The position numbers and the translations under genes are program-made. The notes beneath the pieces are model-generated. The model had not been told where the DNA came from and did not search any database. It saw nothing but the letters and a program-made list of their open reading frames with translations. From Semisulcospira habei (lineage: Eukaryota > Mollusca > Gastropoda > Semisulcospiridae), in NCBI GenBank assembly GCA_036245525.1, contig BTPG01000007.1, forward strand, positions 121,744,172 through 121,808,171: a stretch of 64,000 nt of DNA. Direction: 5' to 3'. Shown piece by piece: positions 4,330-52,165 of this stretch; position 1 is the stretch's first letter, and every line of letters begins with the position of its first letter.

Positions 4330-4690
4330 TCCCATAAGGTCATGTCATCGGTAATGTTTTTGATGAAACAAATGCATTTTTCTTTAAAAGGTATTTTTAA
4401 GAAAAATACTTACCGATGACATGACTCGGACGACCCTCCCACCGGCCCCGCTTGCCGCTGGTAAGCTAAGTATCCTGACTGAGGAATTATGGGTACTCGG
4501 TTCCGGATGGGGAGTATCGGGAGACAACTCTTGGCCCCCTCGGGGTTCCCCGAGTGCCTCCCGGGTTGTGTGTTAACACGAGTTCTTAGGCTAGAATTGA
4601 GTAAGTAGTAGACACTCCCATAAGGTCATGTCATCGGTAAGTATTTTTCGAAAAAATACCTTTTTAAAGAAAAATGCATTTCTCTTTCGT
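4330..4690 (+). repeat. Right terminal structure of DIRS copy 1 (internal complementary region plus end repeat)
   Basis: CATGTCATCGGTAATG near 4336 and ACTTACCGATGACATG near 4430 form a short foldback. The inner segment ending ACTTACCGATGACATGAC is then the reverse complement of the segment beginning GTCATGTCATCGGTAAGT near 4626, about 190 bp further on. The same arrangement appears at 9862-10230. An internal complementary region next to the right inverted terminal repeat is characteristic of DIRS1-group elements, which use it in a circular-intermediate replication scheme. Confidence 0.75.
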
Positions 4691-4723
4691 ACGTCGTATA
4701 TTCTGACACCCGACACCCATTAA

Positions 4724-5063
4724 CGGGTGGCTAGCGCCAGTTCAGCGACACTACGTTTCGCTTCTACTTTGTTGTACCATTGCGTGCCTGACGCTCATCT
4801 TAGCTTGGCGGGTCCCCTCTTGCCCTCGCAGTTAACGTGGCTAACGCCAGTTGTTCAGCAGCACTACGTTTTGCTTGTACTTTGTTGTACCATTGCGCGC
4901 CCGACACTCGTCTTAGCTTGGCGGGGCCCCTCGTGCCCTCGCCGTTTACGGGTGGTTAGCGTCACTTTTGGTCAGCGGCGCTTCGTTTTCGTTTGTACTT
5001 TGTTGTACCATTGTGCGCCCGACGCTTGTCTTAGCTTGGTGTGGCCCCTTGTGCCCTCGCCTT
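4724..5063 (+). repeat. Three tandem units of about 112 bp in the DIRS leader
   Basis: Each unit contains TACTTTGTTGTACCATTG followed by CTTAGCTTGG and a ...TGCCCTCGC end. Units begin near 4724, 4837 and 4948. They precede ORF1, so they lie in the leader. Copy 1 does not show this array because its 5' end is outside the window. Confidence 0.8.
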
Positions 5064-5599
5064 TTTTAGCGTGTTGTGTCGGACATGTATTGCAGTTGAT
5101 TCGACCAGAGGCACCTTTGTCGCTTGTATTATGCTCTAAGGTGCCCACGCTCGGTCGCCTAGCATGCCTGATATGTGTTGCAGCTCCCAGGTGCTTACAT
5201 GCTCCCTGTGTGGCGACTTCTAGTGGCCGATGGATGACCATACGGTCTTCCTCCCCTGTGCTGGCTGCTCCTCGGACCACCTCTGTGATGTCTACTCGTC
5301 CTGGCCCGAGCTACAGTGGTCTCACCTTTGAGTTTCTACCGGCGCGAGCGCCCTATGCCAGCTAGCGACCGACCGGCTCCTTGCCGCCCCCATCCGCTTC
5401 CGGAGAAGTGACTGCTCCTCCCCGACCCGGCCTTTTGGAATGGACGACATGTCGGACACACGCCAATGGTGCTTACCACAGGACTGCGTCCACTGCCAAG
5501 CCCGCTGACCCTTCCGAGGGGTCTAAATGCCGGCAGAGTGCCCGCCTCATTAAGCCCGGCCTTTAGCATCGCACCCTGCGCCGTGCCTTAGTAACTGGC

Positions 5600-7015
5600 A
5601 GTCCTCGTATGTCTCTCCTCGAAAAGCCTGCTGACTCCTCTGAGGGGTCTAAATGCCAGCAGAGCGCCCGCCTCATTGAGCCCGGCCAGCAGAGACTCGC
5701 GCCCCGGCATTCAAAGTCCAGCCATGGACCCGACGCCTCCCGTTCCACCACCAGCTCCAGACACTCTCGCTCGTCAGAGCGCTGTCGGAAGGACAGGACC
5801 ACACATCATGATTGCGACTGCAGTCTCTGACCCTCCTCGTCATCGCGCGCCGCTTCATCGCGCGCTCCCTCCTGATCTGTTCCCTCGCCCCGACGCTCTC
5901 GACGCCGTTCATCTTCTCCCCAGAGGCGCCCCGCCAGGAGTTTGCCTGGGAGGGATCGTCGTCCCCGCTCCCGGCATCGCTGTCGTTCCCCCTGTGACAG
6001 ACGCCCGTGCGCACCAGCCCCCCGTCGCCTCGCCGCGCCTCGCTGTGTTCGTCGCCCCCTCGCCGTCGACACGTCTTGTCCTTGGAGAGCCGTGGGCCAC
6101 GGGATAGCCGTTTTACGTCTCGTCGGGCCCCTGCTGCTGAGGTCTCCTCCCACGCGCCCTTTCTCCCCATGGACGACGAGGCTCTGAGTCTACTCCCCGA
6201 GGACTTCATCTCGGCCCTGTGCGACGTTGACAGCCGCTCGCCCTCGCCCCCGCTCCTGCGACGACCCAGACTCCCCTAGGCTTCCGTCGGCTTCTCGTGC
6301 GGAGACGCTGCTGGCCCTCGATGAGGCCTCTCGGATCATCGCCGCGACCCTTCCTGCAGACGCCTGCCCCGCTTCCCGCCCCCTCGAGAGGAAAGGTCGT
6401 TGCTTTTGTCAACGCGGGCCATCAAGTGAAGAAGTTCAAGTCCCTCCCCCAGCCGCCCAGCTTCAAAGACCTGCGAGATGCCTTCTCCGCCCTCCTCCAG
6501 CAAGCCGCCGGTTGCGTTGCCGATTTCTTCTCGGACCATAGGTGGCCAGCCGGACTCCGCGACTGGTAAGCAGGCCATTCCTAGTCGTTCTCCGCCACTC
6601 TCCCTCCGGTGGATCATCCGGCCTTGGCGCAAGTGGGCGGCCCCACTCAGCTCAGACGTTCTTTCCCCTGAGGGTTGGATAGGACAGCTACCCTCGTCCG
6701 TAACACCTTGGCTTGTTTGGGGTTCCTGGAGCTCCTGACCCAAGCCTTCGTTCGCCGCATTGAGGACGCCTGGCATCCATCGATCACACCCCTTCTGGGA
6801 GACCTACTCGCTCTCGCGGGAAGTGGCCAACCGGGCGACATACCATTCTTCGGTCAACGCCATGGCAGCCGCTGTCCATAGTCACTTGATGCGTCGGGAT
6901 TCCTTGCTTCTAGCCTGCCGTGGGATGCCTCCTGATCTGCGTACTCAGCTGCGTCGGGCCCCCATTGGAGGTACTCTGCTCTTCAGCGACTCGTGGCATT
7001 ATCGGTGAAGGACAT
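5600..7015 (+). pseudogene. DIRS ORF1 (gag-like) remnant
   Basis: Pieces of a gag-like ORF are scattered over all three forward frames. There is a basic, serine-rich stretch near 5700-5810 (SRHSRSSERCRKDR), an acidic piece MDDEALSLLPEDFISALC near 6170, FKDLRDAFSALLQQAAG near 6460, and LRTQLRRAPIGG near 6940. The pieces follow each other in the order expected of one protein, but frameshifts and stops separate them. The assignment rests on its position before the RT and on the basic and helical composition, because gag proteins of DIRS elements are poorly conserved. Confidence 0.55.
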
Positions 7016-7125
7016 CAGATCCGACCACTGGCACCGCAACGCTGCCACCCACCCCGCGCTTTCCAGCTGCTTCCCGACGACCCCTGGATACGCTCCACCA
7101 TTGCCGATGGCCTCCGGTTTGTCCT

Positions 7126-8750
7126 TTGCTCGCTGCCGCTGCTACGACGCTCCCCCCTTGGACTGAGATTCCGAGCGTCCAGCTCAAGGCCTCCGCCCTG
7201 CGCGGAGAGGTCACTTCCCTTCTGCAGAAGGCCGCCACAGAGGTAGTGCGGCACCCCAACTCTCCGGCCTTCTACAGCCGCCTCTTTGTTGTGCCTAAGC
7301 CAGGCAGGAAGTGGTGACACGTCATCGTTCTCTCGGCCCTGAACAAGCATATCTCGTCCCTGATCTTCACGCGGAGACCGCCAGGGCCCTGAGGGCCCCG
7401 TGCAGCCCGGAGACTTCGCGGTCAGTCTGGACTTGTCCGACACCTATTTCCACGTCCCGATGCACCAGGCCTCCAGGAGATACCTCCGTTTCGCGTTCAA
7501 CCGTGTGGTCTACCAGTTTCGGACCCTCCCGTTTTTGGTCTCGACCTCAGCCTTTGGGTGTTCACCCGCTTCATGGACGCCGTAGTGGCCAAGGCCCAAC
7601 GGTCGTCTTCCAGTCCGACGTCGAACTACTTAGACCACCTCCTCCTCCGCAACCAGTCGGAGGCCGACCTGACGGACAGGGACGCTCTGCTTCACCTGCT
7701 TTCGCGCTTGGGCTTCCTGATCAACTCGGGCAAGTCGGACCTCACTCCTCCACGCCGTTTTGTCCATCTTTGCATGGAATTTGCAACCGACCTCAACCGA
7801 GTACGTCTACCAGAGCTGCAGATACAGAGGATTGCCACCCTAGCCAGCCAGTTAGCCCAGGAGGATGCGGCCCCCGCCTGAGTCTGGCTTCAGCTTCTTG
7901 GCATCATGTATGCTGCTGCGGATCTTCTTCCCCTCGATCGTCTTCACTCCCGGCCGCTACAGCTGCACCTGCTCCTTTTGCGTCTGTCCTCCGGCGACAT
8001 AGCTGCCCGGGTGCCAGTGACTCGGATGCTGCATCTCCGTCTTTGGCGTTGGGCGGACACTTCTTGGCTCGCCTTGGGAGTCCCCCTGGCTTCTCCGCTC
8101 CCGCAGCTCTCCCTCTGTGTCAATGCAAGCAGTCTGGCAAGCCCTCATGGTGTGGGAAGCTCACCTGCATCTACCAGGAGCTTCTCATCCTCTCAGACAT
8201 GACGGTGGTGTTCTTTCAGAAACAGGGCGGTCCCCTGACCTGTGCATGCTCCTCTACCGTCTGATGCGCTGGTGCGAGGACCGCGGCATTTCTCTCCAAG
8301 CCCGACACATTCCAGGACACCTGATCATTTTGGCTGACAATCTCCTGGCGTGGCCAGTTTTGCGCACGGAATGGACGTTCTGCAGGGACATCTTTCGGAT
8401 GATCTGCGCTCATTGGGAGACCCCTATGATCTACCTATTTGCCACGAGGTGGAAATCACCAGCTTCCCCTCTTCGTTTCTCTGATCCCCTATCCCCTTGC
8501 CTGGGCGGTCGATGCGCTCTCCATTCCCTGGGACGGTCTCATCGCGTACGCTTACCCCCCCGACGGTTCTCGTCCCCAAAGTGCTCCTCAAGCTTCGAGG
8601 ATGCAATTCGGTCGTCTTGTTGGTCGCCTCGTTCTCCTGGAACCGCTCTTGGACCACCGACCTCCTCGGCCTCGCCACGGGTCCCCCCTGCTGCTGCCTA
8701 TGCCGAGCACCATGCTCAAGCCAGCCGCTGTTCCACCTGTGCCCCTCCTT
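7126..8750 (+). pseudogene. DIRS reverse transcriptase / RNase H remnant
   Basis: The reverse transcriptase starts with LRGEVTSLLQKAATEVV and FYSRLFVVPKPGRKW (7200-7315). After a frameshift it continues with GDFAVSLDLSDTYFHVPMH (about 7410-7465), which is the conserved LDLSDAY-type motif of DIRS RTs, and RRYLRFAFN. The expected YxDD box reads YLDH near 7629, so a catalytic aspartate is lost. RNase H words follow: DMTVVFFQKQGG near 8200 and ARHIPGHLIILADNLLAWP near 8300. The DIRS-typical LFATRW stretch is near 8440. At least four frameshifts break the frame, so no functional protein can be made. Confidence 0.85.
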
Positions 8751-8760
8751 CACACTTGGA

Positions 8761-9756
8761 GATTGTGTGGCAAGAGCAGTGGAGGCGATCGCTACTGCCC
8801 GCAGACTCTCGACCAGAGGTGTCTATGAGGGAAAATGGCGAGTCCTGTGCTCCTGGTGCGACGACCAGCGTCTCGCCCCCACCGAACTGACGAATCCCCA
8901 GCTCGCGGACTTCTTCCTCTGGCTCTTCGGAGACCAAAGCTTGGCCCCTATCACCATCAAAGGGTACCTGTCCATGTTTGCCGACACCTACCGGAACCTT
9001 GGCTGCCCGGACCCCGGCAACTGCAAAGACCTCGCCGGCCTTATGACTCACTTCGGCCTGCAGTGTCCAGTCCCCCGCTCGCTCATTCCTCGCTGGGACC
9101 TACCCTGGGTACTGACGTGGCTTAACTCTGCCAGATTCGAACCGCTGCCTTTGGCCCGCTTCGCGGATGTGACTCGTAAGACATGCCACCGCGGCCCGAG
9201 TTAGCGAGCTACACGCGTTGTCGGCGCGCCCTGCCTGCCTGCAGTTCATAACGGATGGTTCCATGCAGCTCCTCCCGGACCCTGCCTTCCTTGCCAAGAC
9301 TAGGTCTCCTCTGACCGCGCCACAGGTGATTCGGCCACTGAGAAAGATGGACTTTCCCCGGGAGACCAGGCAACAAGATCCTGTGCACGCCCTTCACGTT
9401 ACCTACGCCGACCCAAAGCTGTTCGGAGAGGACGCTCAGGCCTCTTCTACCATTGAACCCAGGCAGAACTGACATGACAGCCCAGATGATATCTTCCAGG
9501 CTACACTGGGTCATACGCTCCGCCTACCAGGACCTCTCCCCACAGGGAGCTTAAGTTACGCGCACACGAGGTACGAGCCATGGCCACGAGTATCGCGTTC
9601 GACCGGAACTGCGCTGTCAAAGACATGGTGGCGGCCGTGGATTCGACCTTCACCCACTTCTACCTCAGGGATCTGGCAGGCCAGCGAGACAACCTCGCAC
9701 TGGTGGGGGACATCTTTGCGGCGCAACACTCCCTCCCGGTGCCACAGGCGCTGTAG
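8761..9756 (+). pseudogene. DIRS tyrosine recombinase remnant
   Basis: The N-terminal core-binding half is open from about 8761 to 9180 (CVARAVEAIATARR, RLAPTELTNPQLADFFLWL, ITIKGYLSMF). After frameshifts the C-terminal half shows LKLRAHEVRAMATSIAFDRN near 9550 and the catalytic tyrosine context FTHFYLRDL near 9655. It ends at a stop at 9754-9756. Tyrosine recombinases cut and rejoin DNA through that Tyr, with Arg/His-x-x-Arg residues. The HEVR box and Tyr are still readable, but they are in a different frame from the N-terminal half. DIRS elements use this enzyme in place of an integrase. Confidence 0.85.
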
Positions 9757-22859: not shown

Positions 22860-23040
22860 TTAACCCATTACATCCTGAAGCTGATTTTTTTTAATCGCTT
22901 GTCCTATGCCGAAGACTACCGTAGGAGATAGACCAACTGTTTTAGTTCAAGGGTGGTGCCAGAGTAGCTTGGCGCCTCAAGCGCCAAGCTATTCTGGCAC
23001 CACCCTTGAACTATCGGTCAAATTTATGTCAAGCAATGGG
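22860..23040. repeat. Family I foldback, subfamily c
   Basis: It starts TTAACCCATTACATCCTGA. The hairpin arms are TTCAAGGGTGGTGCCAGAGT and the complement before CTATCGGTC. It lies about 100 bp beyond the stop codon of the BRICHOS gene. The right end is uncertain. Confidence 0.7.
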
Positions 23041-23139: not shown

Positions 23140-23336
23140 TTAACAGCCGATTTTCTTTATAATGGTTTCGCATTTCTCCGTAGTGGAACACTTGTTTTCG
23201 TGGCGCAAGCACTTGTTTCTGCGGAAGAGCCAGCCATACTTGACGCAAACCTCCTGGCAACAGCAGAGAACATTCTGACACACGTGGGAGGTCTCCTCAA
23301 CGCATCTCTTCTTGCGGTTCTGCACTTGGCTGGCTT
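23140..23336 (-). CDS. BRICHOS gene, exon 6: furin site and ten-cysteine peptide
   Basis: Acceptor TGTTCGATCCAG, phase 1. It encodes EASQVQN, RKKR, then the peptide with cysteine pattern C-x7-C-x4-CCC-x3-C-x11-C-x6-C-x5-C-x8-C, ending IGC and TAA. By my count the peptide has nine Lys/Arg against six Glu, so it is mildly basic. The pattern does not match the defensin or big-defensin spacing that I know. Confidence 0.85.
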
Positions 23337-26300
23337 CTGGATCGAACAGATTGTGGAAGAGGGAACACAAGTAAGTGATAACAAAATAATTATTATGTCC
23401 TTAGGATGATACAACATTAACAATCCAGTAAGCAAAGGTCCTCCGCCGACCCACGTCGGCTGCAGAGGGCCCGCGGCGCACGACTGTGCGCGGGCCCACT
23501 GCGGCCATCGTGGGCCAGCACAACTTGAAGATGTTTTGCTACTGCGAGGAATAAATAGTTGAATATATACATTTGTTTGTTATAAGACAGGGGCGGATCA
23601 GTTAACTCGGGAGGGGGGGGGGGAGGGTGTTAACAACTTTTTTTTTGGGAGCTTCAATTACAGGGACACGATGATAGTAGTTTTGATTAATACAAATGAG
23701 TCCGCTGCGCCACCGCCGCGTGCGCGCCAACGCCTAATGAGCTCAAGACCGTATTCTGCATTGGTCAAAGCTACTATCATCGGGCCCCTATGCCTTCAAC
23801 CTCGTACAATATGCCTTCCCGACGCTACACCTTCCAGTGGCCGAAAAATCCAAACTAAACAACAGGGGGGGGGGGGGGGGGGTAACTTTTTATAGCATTT
23901 TAAACAATTTGGGGTTTCCGGGTACCCCAGATCCGCCCCTGCACAAAAGAGGTGCAATTTTCCCTGTGCACAACATACAACAATAAATTAGCTCTTTTTT
24001 AAGACAAAAAAAAAAAAAGTTGCATGCTAACACCATCATCAGGGTTGTCGAGGGGGGGGGGGGGGTCCGCCGGGAAGCCCTAGGCCATTCCCCCAACCCC
24101 AGATCCGCCCCTGAAACATGTCTACTTACCGGCGGCGGGCACCAGCTGTACAATGCGAAGGCCTCCACAGAACTCGGCAAGCTCAGCGGACAGGTCAGAG
24201 GCGCTCAGTTCACTCCCTGTGCTGTACGCACGGGCAGCTGACACAGTCTCGTTCGGCTGTAATCAGTTAATCAAAACAATCAATCAATCACGCCAACAAT
24301 CAGCTAATATGTCGATCAAGCAACCAGGCAATCGCTGGCTCGCTCACTCGCTCGCTCCTTTGACTCACTCACTCGGCATTAGCTCGATCAATCCGTCAAC
24401 AGTCAGGCAGTCAATTGTCAGAGAAACAGCTAGAGTGACGACCAATTTTCAACCAACGTAGGATAACCTGACAGAAATATCAACGACTTAATTGCGGTAC
24501 TGATGTAATATAACAACCACCACTGATCATCACTCAGTGTCGTCGTTGTCGTGTATGTTTGGAAGGCATCATTTGTCGTTATCGTCGTCAACAGATACCA
24601 ACTTTAACAGCTCAGCACAAAATAACGCCTTAACTCATTCTACCCCAACACCGAAATCCCCAAATGTTGCCGTTGTTCTCTGAAGACTGCATTGCAGTGA
24701 AGGACACAGATCGACCATGATAGTTCAAGGGTGATGCCAGAATAGCTTGGCGCCCATAGGCGCCAAGCTATTCTGGCATCACACTTGAACTATCATGGTC
24801 GATCTTTATCTTGCTGTGGTGTGTCTGGGGTAGAATGGGTTAAATATGAACACGGATATAAATAGATCCCACCAGAGGCAAACAGTCACACGGATTGTCT
24901 CTCTCGGTCCGCTGCCGCTGACCCGCGGCAGCGAACCGAGGGAGACAACCAGTGTGGAGACACGTTAGAACTTTGGGACCCCTCCTCCCTCATCTCCAAC
25001 CCCTTCCCCTTATCTTTCCGTACGCGGGGGGTCAACAAGCATCTATAACGTTTGCAGTTTGGTGGTATTTGAACTCAGCCACCAAGCGTTCACAAAATGT
25101 AAGCAATAATTTTTTAGTTAAAACTCATTCTACCCCAAGACCGAAATCCCCAAAATTTGAAGTCGTCCTCTGAAGACTGCGTTGCAGTGCAGGACACAGA
25201 TCGACCATGATAGTTCAAGGGTGATGCCAGAATAGCTTGGCGCCCATAGGCGCCAAGCTATTCTGGCATCACCCTTGAACTATCATGGTCGATCTTTATC
25301 TTGCTGTGGTGTGTCTGGGGTAGAATGAGTTAATTAAATATAAATCAACGTACGTTGACCCACTCAACGCCATGTTTGCATCTCTGATAATGGCTTCTCG
25401 TCTCTCCTTCAGAGATGTTTCGGACATAGCACACGTCCGGTTGGCTGGACAGTATAAGTCCGCTTTTCCTCTGTAAACACACAACAAGAAATATGTTTCA
25501 GTGAAAAAGGTTCGTTTCTGTGTGACGCAAGGCTATACCACGAATAAAGTAGTTATCTTTGTAGACAACGAACACTGTTAGAAGGGGTACTAGATATACA
25601 CCAGCGCGCTATTAATTTTAACTCTTAAACTCCCAGAACTAAATGACTTTCATTCTATCGTATGAAAGTCATTTAGTTCTAGGAGGTTAAGAGTTAAACG
25701 ATATCTTTTTCGTGTGCCTGTTACTCCTGAATGAATGAACACAGCTTAAATAAATCATATCATCACAAGCGTCCCAGTAGCCCTTTTGTTGACAGAAATT
25801 TCTTAATAGGGACGGCACGCGCCGCCTCCCATCTGGTTTCACTGAATGCCGGGCCGGAGAGGGGTGGGTTGGGGGTTGGGCGGCCGTAGGTCAACACTGA
25901 CCTGTACTGAAACACAACCAGAGCAGGGCAAATGCACTGACCCAGATCTTTAGTTCACGGCTGCAAAGTCTGGTAACTACTGACTCTGAGACATTCGTCT
26001 CCCAAGCGTAAAACTCAGCCTTTTCACGTCGGTAATGCCGACTACTGGCTCCATTGCTAACGACGCAGTCGGCCATCTTTGTTTTTAACTCTCGTCAAAT
26101 GCTTTTCTTTTTATAACGTTTCTTGTGGGTTTTTTTTTATCTATCGCCTATTTCATTCAAAATGTGATTTTGCAAAATAAACAAAAAGTGATAAAATTTC
26201 ATTTAAAAATGGACAGCAATTAATGAAATAGTTTTTGTTTTGAGTGTATTTTGGGCTGATGCTGCTTAGTTTCGGAGGGCACTGACGTGGAAATTAGCAA

Positions 26301-26775
26301 AGTCGTCTCTGGTACACTCTAACTAGGGAACAGAACTAAATGGAATGTGCAGGGAGAATTTAATCACTGAAGATTTTGGAGTCCGGGAAGACTCATATAA
26401 CCCACCAACACGCACGCTGCAGTTCTGTACAGTTTCCCATCCTGCCCCCCCCCCCCCCCCCCTCTTTGCCTGAGAAGAAATAGATTCACATTAGCCCCTA
26501 CCAGTCACAGGGGCTCGTGAGATCCTGTCCTGTATGCCAAACGTAATCCACCCCAGATGTTCCTATGAATGTGGACGCGGTCAGTGTCCAGTAGTGATAG
26601 CCACACAGCCCCACATGTGGCCCTCATTGCTGGAAACCGATCTGCATCGGATGTTTATACTAACAGAGTGAACTGAGGGACTAAAAGCCCTAAGCATGAA
26701 ATAGAAGGATAGGTGATTTTAATTGTAGCACAGTCTATCCCCTCTTTATTCCATTGGACTGAATGTGTGTGTGTT

Positions 26776-26826
<51 letters not shown>

Positions 26827-26849
26827 CCAAGCCGTAATTTTCACACACG

Positions 26850-26932
<83 letters not shown>

Positions 26933-29531
26933 TCAGTGCATTCTACATTTTTATGTTCAGCCCTTTTGGCCACGGTATACAGTGCCGTTTTCGTACTGTC
27001 CAGTCTCTTAGCTATAGTCAGTCCCAGGCATCCCTTAATATTTCAAGGATCCCCTAAAAACACTACCGCCCACCAGCTGCACATTTGCCATGCACAAAAT
27101 AACAACAACAACAAAAACCTGCACATTGACAGTCTCATTTCTTGGTTATGAACCCGATTCCTTACCAACCCCACACCCAAGCACAGCTGAAAGCAGCGTG
27201 CATTTGTCTCCAAAATCAGATTTTTATATAATGACTCGTGTGAACAAAGTAATGACTGACCTGTGTAAATAAATAGATGAATAATATTGTTTGTTCGTGT
27301 CAGTGCTTGTTTGTTGTTGGGTTTGTTTGTTTGTTTTTCTCGGTGCCACATGCTTATAAAAAATTAGCCAGGCTTTTCTGTGGTGCATTTTCCGTATTTC
27401 ATGTTCAATCGCTCCCATTTTCATACCCATGCTGCGCGGCTGTACTATTTCTGTTGATATCTGTAAACATATGATATAAATGCAAACGTTTTTCATTGGG
27501 ACTTGAAAGTGTTTTTGCATGATTCTGCAGGAACAATATAAGGTTGGGAAGGGATACTGATATGGTCCTAAAACTGTGCCGTCATTTTAGGTGGTTCAGT
27601 TATCCGGTAAAGTAATTGTGTGTTGTAGTGTGAAGTGAGTCACATAAATGCCACTAGTCTAAGAGTAATGTGGCTGAATGATAGTGGTTGTGCAATGATA
27701 TTGTGTCTGTGGGTGTGTTCAGGTTGATTCTGGCTTTAGCAACAAAAAGAAAACAAACAACAACAACAAAAAAACTGAACCCCAGAGTATGGTACTTCGG
27801 AAATGCCAAGAAGCTGGAGTACACTGAACATAATAAACTGGACTGACAGGGTTTGGCACTAGACGTGGAACTTTTTTCAAACAAAAACTAAGCAACACAA
27901 CTTGCAGGGTCTTTCAAAGTACTTTATGAGAATAGTGTCATAAATGTGTTCAGAGTTTGGGTGAAAACTGTGCGAGAAAAATACTGAGGTAGATAGCTTT
28001 TACAGTTGGTCTTGCTGATACTGACGCGGTAAACTTGGTCATTAGGGTTTCTGTTAAATCTAGTGTTTACAATGTTTTATGTATGTTCATCGGATGCAGT
28101 TGCATGACCTGAACGTTTTGATGCAAGCTAAGTCTAGGTGTTGTGAATGGGAGGAAAATTATTGAATTAAAAAGGTGACCTGAAATTTTTTTGGAAAAAA
28201 AATTATTTAAAAAAAATATATAAAGTATTTACACCTGCTTTTTAAAGATATCGATAAAAATAGTACAGCCGCAGTATGGGTATGAAAATGGGAGAGATTG
28301 AACATAAAATACGGACACGAGAGCCGATAATGTGCTTTTCCCGCGATTTTTTTCAAGGGCGATAACACATGTTTAAATTGGAATACAAAAGTTGTATTTG
28401 CATTTCTGGACTCAGTACCACATGGGCTATCAAATGGCACCATAAAAAAAAAAATGACCAAAAATGTGCCTTACATATCACGTTAGGGTTATAACCCTAG
28501 CTACAATCTAACACTAAAAATAATGGTAACCCTAACCAAACTTTGGCCCTTAGGGTTTCTATCAAATATAGGGCTAACAATGTTTTAAATATGTCCATCG
28601 GATGCAGTTTCATCAGCTGCTTAAAATGATGTTGAAAACAGCCAGATCGCATGGAAACTGTACAACTTAAATACATTTCCCTCTGCAAGTCATAATATAT
28701 AGTGAGAAAATTCATGCTATGAAGAAAATTTTTCAGTTTCAGCGTTTTCCGTCAATTTTCTTATTCAGATATATACAAAATCTCCTCACAAACCATGGTG
28801 TCAAACAAGCACAAGTGAAAAACATTTGGTTAATTTTTTATAATTTTTTTAGTGATTTTTGGACTTAGAATAATTTTCAAATTTTGCACACTGAAATTTT
28901 TTTATTTTTCATGTGATGGACTTGAAAATTGGTGAGCATCTTTCATGTGACTGACTGATTTAAACGATCATCAAAACAGGGAAATTGGACGGAAACTGTA
29001 GAAGTAAGATGTCTTTTCATATCCAAGTCATAATATATAGTGGTGTATTTTGTCCTAATAAGAAAATTTTTTAGTTTCTGCGTTTTGAGTCAGTTTTCTT
29101 TATTAGAAATATACCGCAAGATCTCACAAACCATGATTCTAAATAGCGCATCTTTTTTAAGATTAGTTTTTTTTTATTTTATTTTTTTAGTGACATTTGG
29201 TATAATCAGTCATATTTATACACCCCCACCCGGGTCTGCCCTGGGGGACTTGGGTGGGGTTAGGTATTTTTTAGTTCCCAGGGTCACCCTGGTCAGCCCC
29301 ACAGGGTGGGTTTTTCTCTATTCTGGGGCATATGTTTCTGTCTACCCTTTGTCCATTCACCTGTATTTGCCTTTTTAAAACTCTCCCTACTGTCTGCACT
29401 GCCTGTAGCTCTTGATATTGGATGTGTGTTGCTAAATGGTCTTGGCTTTATTTAGGCCCCATGTGTTATAAATATACCGCAAGATCTCACAAACCATGAT
29501 TCTAAATAGCGCATCTTTTTTTTTTAAGATT

Positions 29532-29564
<33 letters not shown>

Positions 29565-30561
29565 TGACATTTGGTATAATCAGTCATATTTATACACCCC
29601 CACCCGGGTCTGCCCTGGGGGACTTGGGTGGGGTTAGGTATTTTTTAGTTCCCAGGGTCACCCTGGTCAGCCCCACAGGGTGGGTTTTTCTCTATTCTGG
29701 GGCATATGTTTCTGTCTACCCTTTGTCCATTCACCTGTATTTGCCTTTTTAAAACTCTCCCTACTGTCTGCACTGCCTGTAGCTCTTGATATTGGATGTG
29801 TGTTGCTAAATGGTCTTGGCTTTATTTAGGCCCCATGTGTTAGGTTTATTTAATGTGTTTGACCGGCTGGCGACATACATTCAATGTTCTGTTTAGTTGT
29901 TTTTTTTTCACAAGCAGTGCAGGCACGTCCTGAGAAAGCCTTGTTGCTGTCGGGACGTTAAGCAATGTACAATCAATCATATTTATACACTTATACCTTA
30001 GGGTTTCTATCAAATATAGGGTTAGCAACCGTCGGGGGTTCTTTCTCCGGGTACTCCGGCTCTTCCTCCCCCTCCACTTTGGTATCAGTTTCAGCCAACT
30101 TAATAAAATTTCAAATACAAAACGATTTCCAAATACCGTGTAGCTCGCTTGAGCTTGCCCTTAGCACCACGTGAATGTTCTGTGTTTACGTACAGTGTGT
30201 GAGTGAATGCGTGTGATTCACGTGAGCGTGCTTGTTGGGTTCAGTTCGCGGCTACATTCTGCGCATTGAGTTATATTATAAATATGAGAAATGCGCCATA
30301 TAAATGCTATGCATTATTATTATTATTAACCCTTATCAATCGGAATACACCAGTGTGTGAAATAAGTTTCACTTAAATTATTCAAGGGAAGTGCCAGAAT
30401 ACTTTGGCGCCAAGCTATTCTGGCACCACCCTTTAACTAAAGCCATTGGTCTACTGACATCCTTAGCTGTAAGTACTATATGTAATCCTATGTAATTTGT
30501 GTTAATGTGAAATCGTGTTTATTGCCTTTATGTTTAGACCACAATAGTTACTAAGGCATAC

Positions 30562-30642
<81 letters not shown>

Positions 30643-33600
30643 ACGTGAGTAGCTTAATTATATTTTAATGTGTTTAATGTTCTTCCTTTAATGTTGCGCG
30701 GCACCGCAACGATTTCCTAATGTATTGTTACATATAGCAATAAAGTTCTATCATCATCATCTATCATCATCATCATCATATAATGTAGCTTGAATATGGC
30801 AGTCAGGTCAACTGAAGCTTTTAGCATCAGTCTGATATGGGTCAATATAGTCTTAACACACACAGTTAACCCATATCCTACTGAGGCTAAAAGCTTCAAA
30901 TTTGTGCACTGCCATATGCAAGCTACATTATAGTATTTACAGATAAGGATATAGACCAATGGCTTTAGTTCAAGGGTGGTGCCAGAATAGCTTGGCGCCT
31001 AGAGGCACCAAGCTATTCTGGCACCACCCTTGAACTATTTTAGTCAAACTTATTTCACACAGTGGTGTATTCCGAATGATAAGGGTTAAGACCTAGCGGG
31101 AAGGGGTGTACAACTTGTAAAGTGTCCATCTCAGTGATTTTGCATTGGTCACCATCATTTTAATCAGTCGCCCGTCACTTAAAACATGCTCAGCACCACT
31201 GAAGTCTCAAGTGCCAAACTAAAGCGGCTGGGAAATGTGCTCAGTAAGTTCCAAAATCACATAGGAAAGAGCATCTTACTTCTACAGTTTCCATCAGATT
31301 TTGCATTTGTAAGCATACTTTTAATCAGTCAGTCACGTGAAAGATGCTCACCAATTTTAAGTGAATCACATGAAAAATAAAGAAAACCAGTTTCAGTGTA
31401 AAAATTTGGAAATCAACCTGAACACACCCACAGACACAATATCATTACACAGCCACTATCATTCAGCCACATTACTCTTAAAACAGTAACATTTATGTGA
31501 CTCCCTTCACCATACAACACACAATTACTGACTATATAACTGAAACCACCTGAAAATGACGGCACAGTTTTAGTATCACATATCCATTCCCAACCTTTTA
31601 CACCCGTATTATCTATTGTTCCTGCAGAATCATGCAAAAACACTCTCAAGTCCCAAGGCCAAAAACGTTTGGATTTATATCAAGTATGACCTACCCTGAC
31701 AATAAGTAAAAAAAAAAAAAAAAAAAAACCACCTCAAGGATGGCGTGCATTAAGTAAGACCACAGAAGTAAAAAATTCCCTCATGGTCTCTGGCTGTATG
31801 GCCTTACTAGGAAAATATTACTAGGAAAATAAAATATTATGATCATGATCTACGAGTGTGATTGAGTGGCTGCAAGTTGCACCATAGGTGAATTTCCTGT
31901 ACATAAAGTCTTTCGAACAATAAATTAAATTAGCTGCTTTATTGATTTATCCCAATAGGTGAGGTAGCAGGGATAATATTGGCAACCTAGAAACGTGTAC
32001 AACACATGCGGACCACTCTTTATTCTAGTCACACTGTGACCTGTGAACACGGCATCCATGCTTGCGCGTAACAGCTCTTCCCCTCCCCGGGCGTTATAAG
32101 TTTGAGCATGTGTTCAGTCTTATGCTAAAACCTGACTTTGTCCGCTCTGAGAAGAACTGCGCAGTTCGTTTGCGGCAGCAGGTTCTCAGTAGCCTTTGTA
32201 AATGCAGGGGCAAATGTACATATATGCTAGGACTAGAAGCGGTATATTGGCCTGTCTCCTGCACGGTTTCAGTTTCAGCAAGCATACTGGCCTGCAATAC
32301 CAGCTTGGTGAAAATACATAGATTGTAATGAGTCTGTGCAAGTTTTGAAAACCTTCGGTGGTAAACCTCTCTCGTGATTTATACTATAGTGCTCCTCAGT
32401 TCCCGCATCAGAGTAGGGTTTGTCTAACGTGTAAACCCCGAGGCGGCCGGCGAATTTTCGCAAACGAATGCGGGCGCTTTTGTGTACGTTAGAAGCCTAG
32501 TTCCTGGCTTTAGGTTTCAAATGAATGGCCAAACAAACGCATACTTTGATTGTGCAGCATCAAATCTAACGCTCGTAGCACGTGAGGTCAACACAATACA
32601 CTCAAACAAAAGTAATTTATCAATAGCTGACCATTTAAAGCATTCTAAATAAAACATTTGATTTTAAACACTTCGAAACATTGCTACAAGTTTCCTGGCA
32701 ATATAGCAATAGATTATCAATTTCCACAGTATCACATAAAAAAAGAAAAACAACCGAAGAGAGTAAAACCAAGATGTCGGACCGCGTCGTTAGCAATGGA
32801 ATCAGCGATCGCTTTACCGACTTGAAAAGCTGAGAATTTTTACAAAGGAAGGCCTCAGAGTAAAAATAGACTGTACAGAGACCTCCGGAAAGGGTTGGGA
32901 ATTTGTTTACAGTACACATAAACACGCCGGCACGACCAGGGAGCGATAAAGCGGCAGCGGCGAGCTGTTAAAGCGGCCGAGGCGTTGACAGTTTCTGTCG
33001 TTATGTTGGGGTAAGAGGCAGTCTGGCACCAGATTCTAGCGAGGCCTTGTTTCGGCATGCCTAAACATCTGGGTCACGGACATTTGACACTGCTCTGGGT
33101 GTATCAATTTACAGGTCAGTGTTGGCCGGACAGGTCGTAGACCCACCCACCCCCACCGCCCCCCCTCCCACCCCCACCCCTGCCCGGCATTTAGTGAAAC
33201 CAGATGGGAGGCGGCGCGTGCCGTCCCTATTAAAATGTTGTCTGTCAACAAAAGGGCTACTGGGACGCTATATAGGAGCTTGTGATCAGTTGAAATAATT
33301 TTTAAAAAAAGAAGCATTTATATGGTCTGTGTTGCAATACGTGAAGAAAAATACTGCCGCTTGAGATCAGCTGTCTTTTAACTCCTTTACTGCCAGTGGG
33401 CAGAGACTGTGTTTTGGAATCATTTTAAATTTCATGTCAAATATCCTCCGGCTTCATTGAAAGAACATGAAAACAAAGCGGTTTCAGCAGAACGCATAGA
33501 TCTTCATGAGCTTTTTATCTGCGAATGCCCATTGCAGTTCATGTTTTCACGACAGTATAGGAGCTCAGTACTCCCCCCTCCCTCCCCCCCCATCCCGCCC

Positions 33601-35865
33601 CCCCCCCCCCCCCCCATCCCTTCCCGACGCTAGACCTTCCAGTAGCCGAAAAATCAAAACTAAACAACAAAGGGGACCTTTTCATAGCATTTTAAACAAT
33701 TTGTGTGACGCAAAGCTAAACCACTCAGATGTCCATACTCAGATAGATGAATGAATGACAGAGCCGGTGGCTGTATGCTCAAATAAATGAATGTTTGAAT
33801 GCTGCTAATGACTGTTATATATGTATGTACCCACTCCATATTTTTTCCCCTTCTTTGACACTATTGTACTGGTATATTGTACAACAAGCAAATTAATTAT
33901 TCATGAGCTTGCTCGATATACTCCCAAAGAACCTTGCGGCCCTGGCAAAGTTGTTGATGGATTCTCGAGCCAGGGTCTTACGAAATAAAACACAAAATAC
34001 TGTTCTGCTGCAACACTAATGCATCCTTTTCAACTATGACAACGTTAACACTTTGATTAATTTTAAACTTGCCGTTCTTCACCCATGCCGAAGATACGTT
34101 TTTCGTCCGTGTACGTGCCATCGCTGCTATCGTGTGTTTCGGCACTCGCATTGAACGTGAAAACCATTAAAAAGCGATAAAGACACTAAACTATAACTTA
34201 AAACCTTCATTGTTGTAGATATGTAACGCAAAACTCATAGAGTCGCAAAATGCAACATTTCAAGATAAAAATAAAAACCCACCGAAACTGTATTAGCGTA
34301 GGAGGTAGACGGAACAGCCAAACGCTCAAATCACGCAACACAGCTCCCTTGTGTCAATACTATTGTCCTCTACTTCACATAGCACTTATAGTGGAGTCAT
34401 GCTTTCTTGTTTGTTCGCTACTATTTTTTTTCTTTTTCAAGTTATTATCCCCATTGCTGCTATGGGTGTTTCGTTGCTAAATTTTGCTTATGATTTTAAC
34501 TGAATTAAAATCATTTTGTGAATATGCATATGTTTTGCTTCGGTGTGTATGATGAGTCTCCGTATGCAAACCTAAAATGATCGAACAGAGTGGAGGGCAC
34601 GAAGCGAAGGTAACGTTTTGTTTTGGACTGGGTACATACATTATATTGAGCAGCAATTTGCGAAAACAGACAGATGTGATTACTTGGCCCGATCAAACTG
34701 TCCTCGTCGTATGACTCGGACATTCTGATTCGGGTCTCGTAATCACATCTGCCTGTTCAGTATCGGCACTATATCAGTCAAGCAAAATGCTGCTCAATAT
34801 ATAATATAATATCAGAAATTAGCACACACCGCTCCAAAGTCTTTGAAAATGCTGCTGGTTGAGCCGTCAGATAGAGTTGTAGTGTCCTGTAGAAAATGAC
34901 ACTCCTCATCAGCAACCAGGGACACGTTGACTGAGCTTCCGTCCATCAGCACGGCGCTTCCCACCTAGTACACGACAACGACGAGATGAAATCACACATC
35001 ATTTCCGACAGTACTCCACACATAAACCCACTCCGTGAATACACCGGAAGTACACTTCATTTCAAATGAGACTACTACGCATCTCATTTGAACAGAAGTG
35101 AACATGCTTCGTACTCCCGGCCGAATGGTTCTTTCTGGGTAGTATTCCCACAAACGATGCGGGATTAAATAAACTTAACCCATTCAGCGCTGACACACTA
35201 CAGCAGGAGATGGGTCGACCATGATAATTCAAGGGTAGTGCCAGATTAGCTTGGCGCCTGTCGGCGCCAAATTAATCTGGCACAACTTTTAATTATCATG
35301 GTCGATCCATCTCCTGCAACTGATGCATAGGCTTTAGATGACGCCTCCAAAATTTGGAAAATACGGCCGTCGGGCTGAATGAGTTAAATAAACTTAATAG
35401 CATTGAATTTATCTTAAAAAAAAACAACAACAGTGCTCATGTTTTTTCACCAGTTAAATAGTAGTGGAAATATGTCCGTCTGCATGATGAAAAATAACCA
35501 TTTTTAAAAAAAATTGACATCTTTGGGTTTCGGTAGGTAATTTAGTCGCCATGATTCCTGCAGGAATCATCTCAACTAAAACCGCTACCGCCCCAAAGGG
35601 TTAATTTCGAAACTTTCCATACCGTAACGACTGGTTCTTGTGTTGACACCAGGGTCACTGAACACACCAACAGCAGCAGAGAGATCTGAAATGAACACTT
35701 AATGAATCAGACTAAGCACAGTGACGTTAAAATCTAAAGACACGAACCAGTTAAGATGTCACAACATGTATTATTAATAATTTCCTAGATTTAGCAGTTT
35801 AGTTTTAATGATGAGTCCAACAGTTCCTAGCGTGACGGATGCTGATAGTGTCCCGCGTGCGCGCA

Positions 35866-35933
<68 letters not shown>

Positions 35934-36871
35934 CTAGTGCAGGGTTTTGTTGGTCTTTACAGAAAGTGTGCTCATTTTGTCTGTGATTTTTATAACTTAT
36001 TTTTGCTATTGTGTTAAGTCTGTAATAAGGGTCTCCGTTGATGAATGATTTCCCTTTCGAGGGATTAATAAAGTAGATTGACTTAAACTTCCCCTAAACC
36101 TCATATTCATTGGCAAAATGGCATCTCTTTAATTGGTTTAACTCATTCAGCCCGACGCAAGTATTTCCCAAATTTTGGAGGCGTCATCTAATGACTATGC
36201 ACCATTTGCAGGAGACGGGTCGACCATGATAATTGAAGGGCAGTGCCAGATTAGCTTGGCGCCTGTCGGCGCCAAGCTAATCTGGCACTACCCTAGATTA
36301 TCATGGTCGACCCATCTCCTGCTGTAGTGCATCAGGGCTGAATGGGTTAAATAGTATTACCGCATAAACGTTTTTGTATCTCTTCACGCTATCTCCAGTT
36401 GGATTCTTCTCTACATTTTGCAGTCACCTTTTTGGTCCTGATTTTTTACATTTTGCCCGCTTGGCAGTCACTGAACTTTTAATGTATACGTATCCACAAT
36501 AAGCAACACCAACATCGGAAGCAAACTGCGTCGTACAACATTTTCATTTGTGTCCTTTTTGTACTGGTCTGTTATATTGGACCTTGTGGCTGTAGGCCGC
36601 AAGGTCCAAAATCACATACCAACACACATTTGACGATAACCGTGTTGACGATCAAAAACAAAACAAAACACTAGTCGCAAATCACCGAGTGCTGTTTGGA
36701 CGTTGAAGGCGTCCCGCATCAATAGCTGAGAACGTGTCGTATAGCATTGCCAGCGGCATCGCATTACGACACTTTCGCAGCTATTGATGCAGGGCGCCTT
36801 GAAAATTAAGCTGGAACAGACTAAGACTAACTAACAGACAATACGAGTATCAAAATCTCACTTACCGACAT
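23140..36871 (-). CDS. Secreted BRICHOS-domain precursor with C-terminal ten-cysteine peptide, complete, six exons
   Basis: Exons 36871-36866, 35685-35623, 34964-34830, 25470-25354, 24256-24130 and 23336-23140 join in frame to give 214 residues. Residues 1-17 are a signal peptide (MSISLLLLVCSVTLVST). The BRICHOS domain spans about 24-145 and shows the three conserved residues of the family: Asp65 in IFKDFGA, Cys82 in PDVCYV (17 residues on; about 16 in pro-surfactant protein C) and Cys137 in AELAEFCGGL. Cys45 and Cys99 may form a second pair. Sequons lie at Asn36, Asn86 and Asn109. RKKR at 157-160 is a furin-type site followed by a 54-residue peptide with ten cysteines. BRICHOS domains act as intramolecular chaperones for a C-terminal segment, and in annelids some such precursors release antimicrobial peptides. 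The family assignment is from motif recognition; the role of this peptide is unknown. Confidence 0.85.
23425..23520. repeat. Family V foldback, partial
   Basis: It starts CCAGTAAGCAAAGG and holds GGCCCGCGGCGCACG...CGTGCGCGGGCCC-like complementary words. The right terminus (TTTGCTTACTGG) is missing. Relatives are at 40208-40328 and 45663-45753. Confidence 0.65.
23589..23940. mobile_element. Non-autonomous DNA element with AGGGGCGGATC inverted ends
   Basis: 352 bp bounded by AGGGGCGGATC and GATCCGCCCCT, with G-rich runs inside. The inner part (CTTCCCGACGCTACACCTTCC, AGCATTTTAAACAATTTG) recurs at 33600-33710, and another right end closes at 24112. It lies in intron 5 of the BRICHOS gene. Confidence 0.7.
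24040..24112. repeat. Right-end fragment of the AGGGGCGGATC family
   Basis: A poly-G run followed by CCCCAGATCCGCCCCT, the same terminus as at 23940. The fragment ends 18 bp short of exon 5. Confidence 0.6.
24130..24256 (-). CDS. BRICHOS gene, exon 5: end of BRICHOS domain
   Basis: 127 nt, acceptor ACTGATTACAG and donor CCG|GTAAGT, phases 0 and 1. It encodes PNETVSAARAYS through AELAEFCGGLRIVQLVP with the second conserved BRICHOS cysteine. Confidence 0.85.
24630..24843. repeat. Family I foldback, subfamily b, intron 4 of BRICHOS gene
   Basis: 214 bp from TTAACTCATTCTACCCC to GGGGTAGAATGGGTTAA. It is nearly identical to the copy at 25118-25333 in the same intron and same orientation. Confidence 0.9.
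24887..24956. repeat. GC-rich hairpin
   Basis: CTCTCGGTCCGCTGCCGC and GCGGCAGCGAACCGAGGGAG are complementary arms around a short loop. The flanks CACACGG and CCAGTGTG extend it. It lies between the two subfamily b copies. Confidence 0.75.
25118..25333. repeat. Family I foldback, subfamily b, second copy in intron 4
   Basis: TTAAAACTCATTCTACCCC to GGGGTAGAATGAGTTAA. It ends about 20 bp from the donor of exon 4. Confidence 0.9.
25354..25470 (-). CDS. BRICHOS gene, exon 4: first conserved BRICHOS cysteine
   Basis: 117 nt, acceptor GTGTTTACAG, donor AAC|GTACGT, phase 0 at both ends. It encodes RKSGLILSSQPDVCYVRNIS through HGVEWVN. The preceding DFGA and this exon together give the family pattern D-F-x-x-x-x-x-G-L...C-Y-V. 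Confidence 0.85.
25618..25697. repeat. TTAA-bounded hairpin
   Basis: 80 bp with arms CAGAACTAAATGACTTTCAT and ATGAAAGTCATTTAGTTCT around TCTATCGT. The ends are TTAACTCTTAA and TTAAGAGTTAA. It is almost a perfect palindrome. Confidence 0.85.
25768..25905. repeat. Dispersed repeat, inverted relative to 33110-33250
   Basis: GCGTCCCAGTAGCCC, GGGACGGCACGCGCCG and CATCTGGTTTCACT occur here. Their complements occur in reversed order at 33180-33275. Similarity continues upstream (GTCGTTAGCAATGGA words at 26050 and 32788). Confidence 0.75.
26765..26931. repeat. (GT)n and (CA)n facing arrays
   Basis: About 58 bp of GT repeats, a 20-bp spacer, then about 88 bp of CA repeats on the same strand. The two arrays are complementary and can fold back. 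Confidence 0.95.
27540..29050. repeat. Dispersed repeat, inverted relative to 31200-31680
   Basis: Segments near 27560-27730 (TGGCTGAATGATAGTGG, TGTGTCTGTGGGTGTG) and 28900-29000 (GGTGAGCATCTTTCATGTGA) reappear as complements near 31420-31600 and 31320-31370. No open frame is recognisable. Confidence 0.65.
29107..29826 (+). repeat. Tandem duplication of about 360 bp including part of a SINE
   Basis: ATATACCGCAAGATCTCACA begins near 29110 and again near 29471. Both units run through the same SINE-A 5' part. The first unit stops inside the SINE at GGCCCCATGTGTTA. The second SINE copy (29598-29976) goes on to its tail and shows the target duplication TCATATTTATACAC at both ends. Confidence 0.85.
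29598..29976 (+). repeat. SINE-like retroposon, family A
   Basis: Full copy; target repeats TCATATTTATACAC at 29584-29597 and 29977-29990. Confidence 0.85.
30326..30470. repeat. Family I foldback, degraded
   Basis: It starts TTAACCCTTATCAATCGGAA. The core AGTGCCAGAATACTTTGGCG joins directly to CCAAGCTATTCTGG, so the loop is lost. The right end is unclear. Confidence 0.65.
30487..30780 (+). repeat. Retroposon family B with internal (GT)n and (ATC)n tail
   Basis: GTGAAATCGTGTTTATTG, then TAAGGCATACGG, a long GT run (30562-30641), then GTTGCGCGGCACCGCAACG, GCAATAAAGTTCTATCATC and an (ATC)n end. The same order occurs at 63346-63658. AATAAA next to a simple-repeat tail suggests a LINE/SINE 3' end. 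Confidence 0.75.
30866..31089. repeat. Family I foldback, subfamily c (TTAA to TTAA)
   Basis: TTAACCCATATCCTACTGAG to ATAAGGGTTAA, 224 bp, with the common hairpin core. Confidence 0.85.
31200..31680. repeat. Dispersed repeat, inverted partner of 27540-29050
   Basis: It carries complements of segments in that interval, for example AACACACCCACAGACACAAT near 31420 and TCACGTGAAAGATGCTCACC near 31330. It is non-coding. Confidence 0.65.
33110..33250. repeat. Dispersed repeat, inverted partner of 25768-25905
   Basis: AGTGAAACCAGATGGGAGGC and GCGCGTGCCGTCCC are complements of words in the partner. The inserted C-rich run differs between the two. Confidence 0.75.
33378..33510. repeat. Family IV element, one half
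   Basis: It starts TTAACTCCTTTACTGCCAGTG and reaches GCATAGATCTTCATGAGC. The opposite arm is replaced by other sequence. Related starts are at 39896, 44376 and 46245. Confidence 0.6.
34636..34803. repeat. Long imperfect palindrome next to exon 3
   Basis: TATTGAGCAGCAATTTGC, CAGATGTGATTAC and GGCCCGAT on the left have complements GCTGCTCAATATA, GTAATCACATCTG and ATTCGGGTC on the right. It ends 27 bp from the coding end of exon 3. Confidence 0.75.
34830..34964 (-). CDS. BRICHOS gene, exon 3: N-terminal half of the domain
   Basis: 135 nt, acceptor GTCGTGTACTAG, donor GCG|GTGTGT, phase 0 at both ends. It encodes VGSAVLMDGSSVNVSLVADE through SSIFKDFGA with the conserved aspartate. The donor deviates from GTRAGT, so it is weaker than the others. 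Confidence 0.8.
35175..35387. repeat. Family I foldback, subfamily a, intron 2 of BRICHOS gene
   Basis: TTAACCCATTCAGCGC to GGGCTGAATGAGTTAA. The core is TTGGCGCCTGTCGGCGCCAA. Confidence 0.85.
35521..35604. repeat. Family III foldback in intron 2
   Basis: GATTCCTGCAGGAATC at the centre, with GGTTTCGGTAGG...CCGCTACCGCCCC arms and the right end AAAGGGTTAA. It ends 18 bp from the donor of exon 2. Confidence 0.7.
35623..35685 (-). CDS. BRICHOS gene, exon 2: signal peptide core
   Basis: 63 nt, acceptor GTTCATTTCAG, donor ACG|GTATGG. It encodes ISLLLLVCSVTLVSTQEPVV plus T, with hydrophobic core LLLLVC and a likely cut after VST. Confidence 0.85.
35870..35926 (+). repeat. (GT)n microsatellite
   Basis: Uninterrupted GT run. 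Confidence 0.95.
36138..36350. repeat. Family I foldback, subfamily a, intron 1 of BRICHOS gene
   Basis: TTAACTCATTCAGCCC to GGGCTGAATGGGTTAA, 213 bp, intact arms. Confidence 0.9.
36563..36626. repeat. Hairpin with GGACCTT arms, copy 1
   Basis: GTTATATTGGACCTTGTGGC and GCCGCAAGGTCCAAAATCAC are arms. A second copy lies at 37515-37580, so two copies flank exon 1 of the BRICHOS gene. Confidence 0.7.
36708..36798. repeat. Hairpin about 70 bp inside intron 1
   Basis: GGCGTCCCGCATCAATAGCT and AGCTATTGATGCAGGGCGCC are complementary, with GTGTCGTA/TACGACAC continuing inward around a short loop. Confidence 0.8.
36866..36871 (-). CDS. BRICHOS gene, exon 1 coding part (Met-Ser)
   Basis: ATGTCG followed by GTAAGT. 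The start was chosen because it supplies the only Met ahead of the signal-peptide exon in frame, lies next to a consensus donor, and is preceded by a TATA box at a fitting distance. Confidence 0.75.
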
Positions 36872-41338: not shown

Positions 41339-47580
<6,242 letters not shown>

Positions 47581-50583: not shown

Positions 50584-51600
50584 TTATAGGAGTTGACCAC
50601 GACGTCTGCAGGCTTGTTCGTGGCTGCGGAGGCCAATCCGAGACAGGCAGGTTCGACCGCAGTGGCTGCAGGGGAAGGTATGGCCAGGGTTCTGAGCTGC
50701 GGCATCTCTGTTTTTTCTCCTGAGCCGCTTGACCTTAAGGCTAGCTCTGTGAGAGTCCTCAAAGGAGACAGCTGCCTTGTAAATGGTGGAGCGCCAGGTG
50801 TCACGGTCCGCAGCAAGCGAAGACCACTGGTGGTGGTCGATTTGGCAGGCACTAAGTGACTTCTTGAGACAGTCTTTGTATCTCTTCTTTGGTGCCCCTC
50901 TGTCACGGTGTCCAGTAGCAAGCTCGCCGAACAGTGTGATCTTTGGTAGGCGATGATCCTCCATCCTGGAGACATGCCCCGCCCATCGGAGCTGTGTCCG
51001 CAGCAGCAAAGCCTCGATGCTCACAGTTTCAGCCTGTTCAAGGACCTCGACGTTGGTGACATAGTCACTCCAGTGAATGCCCAGGATGGTACGCAGGCAG
51101 CGCTGGTGGAAGCGTTCGAGGAGTCGTAGTTGGCTGCGGTAGAGGGCCCAGGACTCGGAACCATACAGCAGGGTGGTGAGGACCACAGCTCTGTACACGC
51201 TGATCTTGGTGCCTGTTTTCAGCTGTTGATTGTGCCACACCCGCTTGAAAAGTCGCCCGAAAGCGCTGTTCGCTTTTGCCAGCCTGCTGTCAAGCTCCTT
51301 GTCCAGCTTGGCGTCCGACGTGATAATGCAGCCAAGGTAGGTAAACTGGTGCACTGACTTTAGTTCAGACTCGCCAATGGTGATGTGAGGAGGGCGATAC
51401 ACCGTCTTGGGTGCCGGCTGATGGAGGACCTCTGTCTTTTTCAGACTGACCTCGAGTCCAAAGAGCTGGGCAGCATCTGCGAAGCAAGACGTGATGCGCT
51501 GCAGGGCTCTCTCTGTGTGTGCAACGAGGGCAGCATCATCAGCAAAAAGCAGCTCATGAATCAGTTGGTCTAGGGTTTTCGTGTGGGCCTGCAGTCGTCT
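50584..51600 (-). pseudogene. Non-LTR retrotransposon, C-terminal half of reverse transcriptase, 5'-truncated
   Basis: An open frame of about 340 codons shows the RT catalytic box LLFADDAALVAHTE, then LKKTEVLHQ, the thumb region FTYLGCIITSDAKLDKELDS, the STLLYGSESW-like TTLLYGSESWALY, and ILGIHWSDYVTN. It has a C-terminal zinc finger FPCSHCGRTCLSRIG...SHEQAC. This arrangement is typical of the RT part of RTE/I-like LINEs found widely in invertebrates; I do not assign the clade firmly. The frame is intact from the FADD box to the stop. The N-terminal RT and endonuclease are gone and the 5' end runs into a CA-rich repeat, so it is a 5'-truncated insertion. Confidence 0.85.
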
Positions 51601-51602
51601 GT

Positions 51603-52165
51603 CTCGCACACACACGCACAAACATACACTCACACAAACGTACAAACGCAAACACAGTCACACACGCCCGTAGGCCCCCAGGCACAAATCTCAGTCGATC
51701 GATCTACGCGTGTGCGTTTGCGTGTATGTTTGTGTGTGTGTAGGTGGGTGCGTTGATGTGTGTGACTACAACAGTTTGTGACCCCATACGTACACACATA
51801 CATACATACGCACATACATACGCACATACGGCGCTTCGCGTCAAATGTACGTACAGCAGCGAGGTTAGCGTAACTAGACATGACGTAATTTTTATCTTGT
51901 TTCTTTAATTGTTAGAGGTTTAGCCTACCCGCCTTTGACATTATGGACATGCTATTAAATTCGCCCCACCGCGACCCTTTATATAAGTCCCTTATATAAA
52001 TAAAAGGGTCTTAAAAAATAAACGCGATGAAAAATGAAAAAAAATGAACGCTCTGGCGTAGATCGATCGACTGAGATTTGTGCCTGGGTGCCTACGGGTG
52101 TGTGTGACTGAGTGTGTTTGCGTTTGTACGTTTGTGTGAGTGTATGTTTGTGCGTGTGTGTGCGA

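Follow-up and report, generated by a model that had tools for sequence, protein, structure and literature searches.

A stretch of 64,000 nucleotides from the gastropod Semisulcospira habei (contig BTPG01000007.1 of assembly GCA_036245525.1; hereafter the window) carries, on its minus strand, a six-exon gene for a precursor protein in which a signal-like N-terminus, judged by eye, is followed by a pro part, a basic cleavage site and a cysteine-rich C-terminal peptide. The gene is real, beyond chance, and belongs to a precursor family that Pfam does not recognise. The explanation that best accommodates the whole, and which we hold with a little less than even confidence, is that the locus belongs to a multigene family of caenogastropods, encoding secreted precursors in which a BRICHOS-type prodomain accompanies a peptide that is released for host defence. 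It is likely, but not proven, that the prodomain holds a strongly diverged BRICHOS domain; the basis for this remote homology is the order of elements in a structural model, a match, tied with other folds, to the structure of proSP-C and the positions of introns.

The gene fills positions 23140-36871 exactly, a span of 13.7 kb, and its five introns are all of the GT-AG type with phases 0,0,0,0,1, which agree across all exon joins; the coding sequence of 645 nt gives a frame of 214 residues (coordinates are collected in Table 1). The pro part, encoded by exons 3-5, is acidic (charge –7.8, isoelectric point 4.7, from residue 20 to the RKKR motif) and the 54-residue stretch that follows the motif is cationic (ten cysteines, charge +2.8, isoelectric point 8.4). 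A first-pass annotation, made from the letters alone, had proposed this exon chain with its matching phases, as well as the secretory layout with RKKR and a ten-cysteine peptide, and all of these stand. Cysteine richness by itself would be insufficient to establish a gene, since the window has 11 other open stretches with at least ten cysteines per 54 residues, nine of which are VC-type dinucleotide runs. The gene is placed beyond chance because three other proteins carry the same chain and because matching exons recur at 12 loci in this snail's genome. These proteins, the full-length relatives found in a search of 5.8 billion proteins, are P0001 (93% identical and of the same length), P0002 (72%) and P0003 (53%). 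They are borne on contigs of 1223, 985 and 955 bases with the source label 'lgn', which we take to denote Logan assemblies. Set against a gene of 13.7 kb, contigs of this size must derive from spliced RNA or from an intronless copy, and two protein searches of the snail's own genome list exon-sized matches only, which speaks against an intronless copy there. Judged by these contigs, the exon chain appears to be transcribed in the relatives, and the window's own copy would then probably be transcribed as well. The join of exons 3 and 4 across the 9.4-kb intron, on which the first-pass annotation had made its proposal depend, is carried by the spliced relatives. A further search, made with an alignment of ten rows, added P0005, P0006 and P0007 to P0001-P0004, making seven matches at E<=10; P0004, P0006 and P0007 are proteins of the caenogastropod Batillaria attramentaria, the species from which all named relatives come.

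The 12 related loci in the 1.98-Gb genome were obtained by grouping the matches of these two protein searches. They comprise the window locus itself, a pair near C7:127.3 Mb, a group of six in C7:155.1-155.54 Mb and another of three in C1:164.2-165.0 Mb. Further tblastn alignments cover rows at E<1 in one run and, in another, rows at E<0.5 for all but two of the queries. It should be noted that some are weak or represented by a single exon (C7:127.36, best E 1.3e-4; C7:155.512, E 0.015 with one stop) and that C1:164.977 is counted from its peptide exon alone; a C2 match (E 6e-4, 32%, three stops) was excluded. Where both ends are visible, the exon limits and phases of the copies read are those of the window gene; L009 has an apparent GC donor. 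For the C7:155.541 copy, a look through the 20 kb downstream did not reveal the last two exons. L017 (C7:155.10 Mb) carries exon 5 twice in nearly identical form, at 3783-3905 and some 3 kb away at 6742-6858, a partial tandem duplication. The exons of the three C1 copies (L021, L024 and L028/L029) look disrupted or altered, and these copies are probably decaying; the ratio of nonsynonymous to synonymous substitution (dN/dS) between the window gene and L024 is 0.81 over 39 codons. The comparisons with L012 and L009 indicate that both prodomain and peptide are under purifying selection. The proportion of changed nonsynonymous sites (pN) in the prodomain is 0.31 and 0.33, respectively (dN/dS 0.33 and 0.34), and in the peptide 0.20 and 0.19, against a synonymous proportion (pS) of 0.60-0.79. 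Peptide dN/dS is 0.11 with L009; with L012, saturation of the synonymous sites (pS 0.79) leaves it undefined. Between L012 and L009, pN is 0.22 in prodomain and peptide alike, so the peptide is not in every comparison the more conserved part.

In the mechanism that we propose, the signal peptide encoded by exons 1-2 would route the chain into the secretory pathway, where the acidic prodomain of exons 3-5, with a BRICHOS fold beyond the reach of Pfam, would prevent misfolding or aggregation of the disulfide-rich part encoded by exon 6. A furin-type protease would then cleave after RKKR and release the cationic peptide. The peptide is predicted to be a long hairpin in which the eight-cysteine core is bridged in nested fashion (1-8, 2-7, 3-6, 4-5) around an aromatic Gly-Trp loop, an adjacent pair of cysteines within the CCC run being an addition to that core. 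Outside the cell, it would act in host defence, following the model of the alvinellacin family of annelids. BRICHOS homology has fairly strong backing; the chaperone role, the cleavage and the disulfide pairing are inferred, and defence, the weakest step, seems the most likely function by analogy with the annelid precursors.

The pairing is suggested by the cysteine pattern among 12 members, a set that leaves aside the three C1 copies, C7:155.512 and C7:155.541 and that includes near-orthologous, hence non-independent, pairs (the window gene with P0001, L012 with P0003). Ten cysteines are present in eight of the 12 peptides and eight in three, the remaining one having seven in a gene model that is incomplete there. 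The eight-cysteine members are without exactly the first two cysteines of the CCC run. The cysteines of the core are spaced Cx7Cx6Cx3Cx11Cx6Cx5Cx7-8C, an almost mirror-symmetric pattern that would suit nested bridges in a long hairpin; the structural model places low-confidence strands in the peptide at 168-174, 177-188 and 191-198. In the main clade the first two cysteines of the run are present or absent together, which suggests a vicinal disulfide, a bond that secreted peptides rarely contain. That these features together define an expanded class of BRICHOS-type precursors of the caenogastropods' own, missed by Pfam and characterised by a cargo whose disulfides form a ladder of four rungs about the invariant Gly-Trp loop, with a vicinal disulfide in CCC, is a tentative proposal, slightly less secure than the overall explanation. 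The cleavage motif is uneven across the members, being RxKR in three, dibasic in two, KR one residue earlier in three and absent from four.

The same peptide features might instead point to a tissue signal or matrix peptide like chondromodulin-I or tenomodulin, with the aromatic loop as its active face. We consider this the main rival, though an unlikely one. Chondromodulin-I has eight cysteines and, on either side of an aromatic loop, antiparallel stretches joined by disulfides; tenomodulin has a 13-membered ring (PMC3492907). In the window precursor, the loop from C180 to C192 comprises 13 residues, with Tyr, Trp and Phe, and its Gly-Trp is invariant in all 12 members; the peptide is conserved (pN 0.19-0.22 against pS 0.70-0.79), and its charge ranges from –3.0 to +4.7, so that in some members it is not cationic. 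On the other hand, the likeness to the two proteins is one of described layout, a cysteine-rich C-terminal part with eight cysteines and an aromatic loop, and both are membrane proteins of type II whose mature part is longer, whereas the precursor has a signal-like N-terminus. A private, expanded gastropod family would also be expected of defence genes more than of a conserved tissue signal. Release of a defence peptide is still the function that we prefer.

The identity of the prodomain has to be weighed separately. Asp65, Cys82 and Cys137 are kept in the four full precursors (the window's and P0001-P0003) at spacings of 17 and 55 residues, as the first-pass annotation had reported, and the corresponding spacings in human ITM2A are 16 and 59 (PMC2751770). 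The assignment finds no support in the profile evidence. The Pfam BRICHOS profile (PF04089), the search proposed with the first-pass annotation, matches neither the window precursor nor any of four relatives or ten alignment rows at E<=10, and a genome-wide search with it found no match at the family loci and one at a single other place. Nor did the profile of OAF (Out at First, PF14941) match the precursor, its relatives or the ten alignment rows. Searches of Pfam and of PDB sequences returned chance-level rows only, whether the query was the precursor, a profile of it or the profile of the peptide. A profile-profile comparison with one BRICHOS sequence, made from a shallow alignment (Neff about 2), falls into the register that was expected, but an equally high score is reached by 43 of 200 shuffles.

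Set against this is the evidence of structure and gene organisation. The fold is defined by the order b1' b2' b1-b4, a1, b4', a2, b5, with a disulfide from a2 to b4 (PMC9714404), and the model of P0001 appears to follow this order, its Asp65, Cys82 and Cys137 taking the positions typical of the family. The proSP-C BRICHOS structure, 2yad, is a top match for model 2, tied with LolA and ependymin-like (EPDR1) folds; among the tied rows it has the lowest root-mean-square deviation, over 70 aligned residues. It also led the matches of model 1, an AlphaFold prediction from four sequences that is poor (mean predicted local distance difference test score 46.5) and gives a weak hint only. Foldseek returned no match at E<=0.001, and 2yad is not among the 50 rows listed. 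The comparison of introns is independent of fold prediction and rests on one reference gene. The one Pfam-positive BRICHOS place in the genome (C7:4.42 Mb; exon of 28.8 bits, cut-off 25) is presumably an ITM2-like gene, so named here for its likeness. Its upstream exon, linked to it by splice phase and an Asp-Phe motif with the splice sites read from the DNA, ends ...VVWHDFDK and the next reads NLTAIVDPTHLTCYIMPLN...MKLK; the introns fall after Asp+3 and Cys+24, both in phase 0, around an exon of 37 codons. The corresponding stretches of the window gene are ...IFKDFGA and RKSGLILSSQPDVCYVR...EWVN, with introns after Asp+3 and Cys+25, again both in phase 0, around an exon of 39 codons. The first position and phase are thus common to both genes and the second differs by one codon, although the ITM2-like gene, unlike the window gene, is Pfam-positive and the sequences are too distant for significant alignment. 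A stretch of L038 that might have been an additional exon of the ITM2-like gene was set aside, its frame and splice sites being ambiguous.

Alternatively, the prodomain might have another open-sheet fold, LolA-like or ependymin-related, and its likeness to BRICHOS be convergent. The failure of the BRICHOS profile to match and the equal scores of LolA and EPDR1 for model 2 agree with this, but against it stand the places of the aspartate and both cysteines in the model, the precedence of 2yad in model 1 and by deviation among the ties, and the agreement of intron positions and phases with a BRICHOS gene; moreover, the Pfam ependymin and LolA families are unmatched too by the precursor, its relatives and the ten alignment rows. 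We regard it as improbable, a little more so than a tissue signal. The BRICHOS identity claimed by the first-pass annotation is made likely by the model's element order, the shared introns and a structural match that is tied, and not by the profile search. That the product is a toxin-like glandular peptide with an unusually large propeptide is very improbable: signal, pro part and cysteine-rich peptide in a multigene family of a caenogastropod genome would suit it, but the peptide is conserved, without fast evolution, and the large propeptide is folded in the model.

The scheme of a BRICHOS-type precursor is already known. The antimicrobial BRICHOS precursors of annelids (alvinellacin, arenicin, capitellacin, nicomicin and HfBRI) have, as here, a signal, an acidic pro part with the Asp-Cys-Cys pattern, a basic site and a C-terminal peptide (PMC5431198, PMC10745061). 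Preproalvinellacin, like the window gene, has five introns, the antimicrobial peptide in the last exon and a multigene family, of at least six copies, and its peptide is more conserved than its chaperone (PMC5431198). The annelid BRICHOS domains differ from the window prodomain, which lies below Pfam detection. Most annelid cargoes are short, with 0-4 cysteines, whereas the window family has a fixed eight- or ten-cysteine pattern. The first-pass remark that such cargoes have two to four cysteines is too narrow, given the eight of chondromodulin-I and the 11 each of HfBRI-75 and HfBRI-91, cargoes to which the source assigns no function (PMC10745061); the latter are likened to the window peptide by cysteine count, 11 against ten. 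AmBRI-44a has four disulfides (PMC11767717). OAF, a secreted remote BRICHOS member, has a 70-residue cargo with four predicted nested disulfides, its cysteines nested in a hairpin (PMC9714404), and resembles the window precursor in layout. The novelty claimed at first was therefore too broad, as cysteine-rich BRICHOS cargoes have been published. What is new is that the family belongs to gastropods, that its prodomain is strongly diverged and that the cysteine pattern is its own; no description of a gastropod BRICHOS gene was found among the literature matches listed, which cover titles and the starts of abstracts outside subscription papers and preprints. If our explanation is true, the pairing of chaperone and cargo known from the BRICHOS defence genes of annelids reaches snails in a form that escapes Pfam, a BRICHOS-type prodomain can serve a cargo with many more disulfides than the short hairpins on which most work has been done, and intron positions together with predicted fold offer a route to further such families.

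Table 1. Parts of the precursor gene, in window positions.
Feature	Position	Strand	Remarks
Exon 1	36866..36871	-	Met-Ser only; start of P0001 agrees
Exon 2	35623..35685	-	Residues 3-23, remainder of signal-like N-terminus (by eye)
Exon 3	34830..34964	-	Residues 24-68, first prodomain strands; conserved Asp65 codon 34839-34841
Exon 4	25354..25470	-	Residues 69-107; Cys82 codon 25429-25431; phase-0 intron on each side
Exon 5	24130..24256	-	Residues 108-149 and first base of codon 150; Cys137 codon 24167-24169
Exon 6	23140..23336	-	Linker, RKKR, ten-Cys peptide, stop
RKKR furin-type motif	23305..23316	-	Residues 157-160; predicted cleavage
54-residue peptide	23143..23304	-	Cx7Cx4CCCx3Cx11Cx6Cx5Cx8C, from the coding-sequence translation

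Palindromic hairpin repeats with a common GGCGCCAAGCT-type core and GGTCGA-type ends lie in introns of the precursor gene or just outside it (22943-23013, 24703-24810, 25189-25304, 35203-35317 and 36208-36322), and could well be copies of a single small mobile element. By eye, the peptide exon of the eight-cysteine members at C7:127.29 and 127.36 Mb stands between inverted GGCCATCGGGCCGACGTCGGCCC-type repeats (L031, 250-620; L034, 1-500). A dermatopontin gene (PF14704), of which two exons were identified (43531-43896 and 44542-45048; E 3.4e-10 and 1.9e-10), adjoins the precursor gene on the same, minus strand. Within the repeat-rich 5' part of the window, 3151-9204 holds several long open frames on the plus strand, for three of which there was no Pfam match at E<=0.01. 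An open frame at 50584-51657, on the minus strand, matches RVT_1 with 29.3 bits (cut-off 29.6) and is probably a retroelement remnant.

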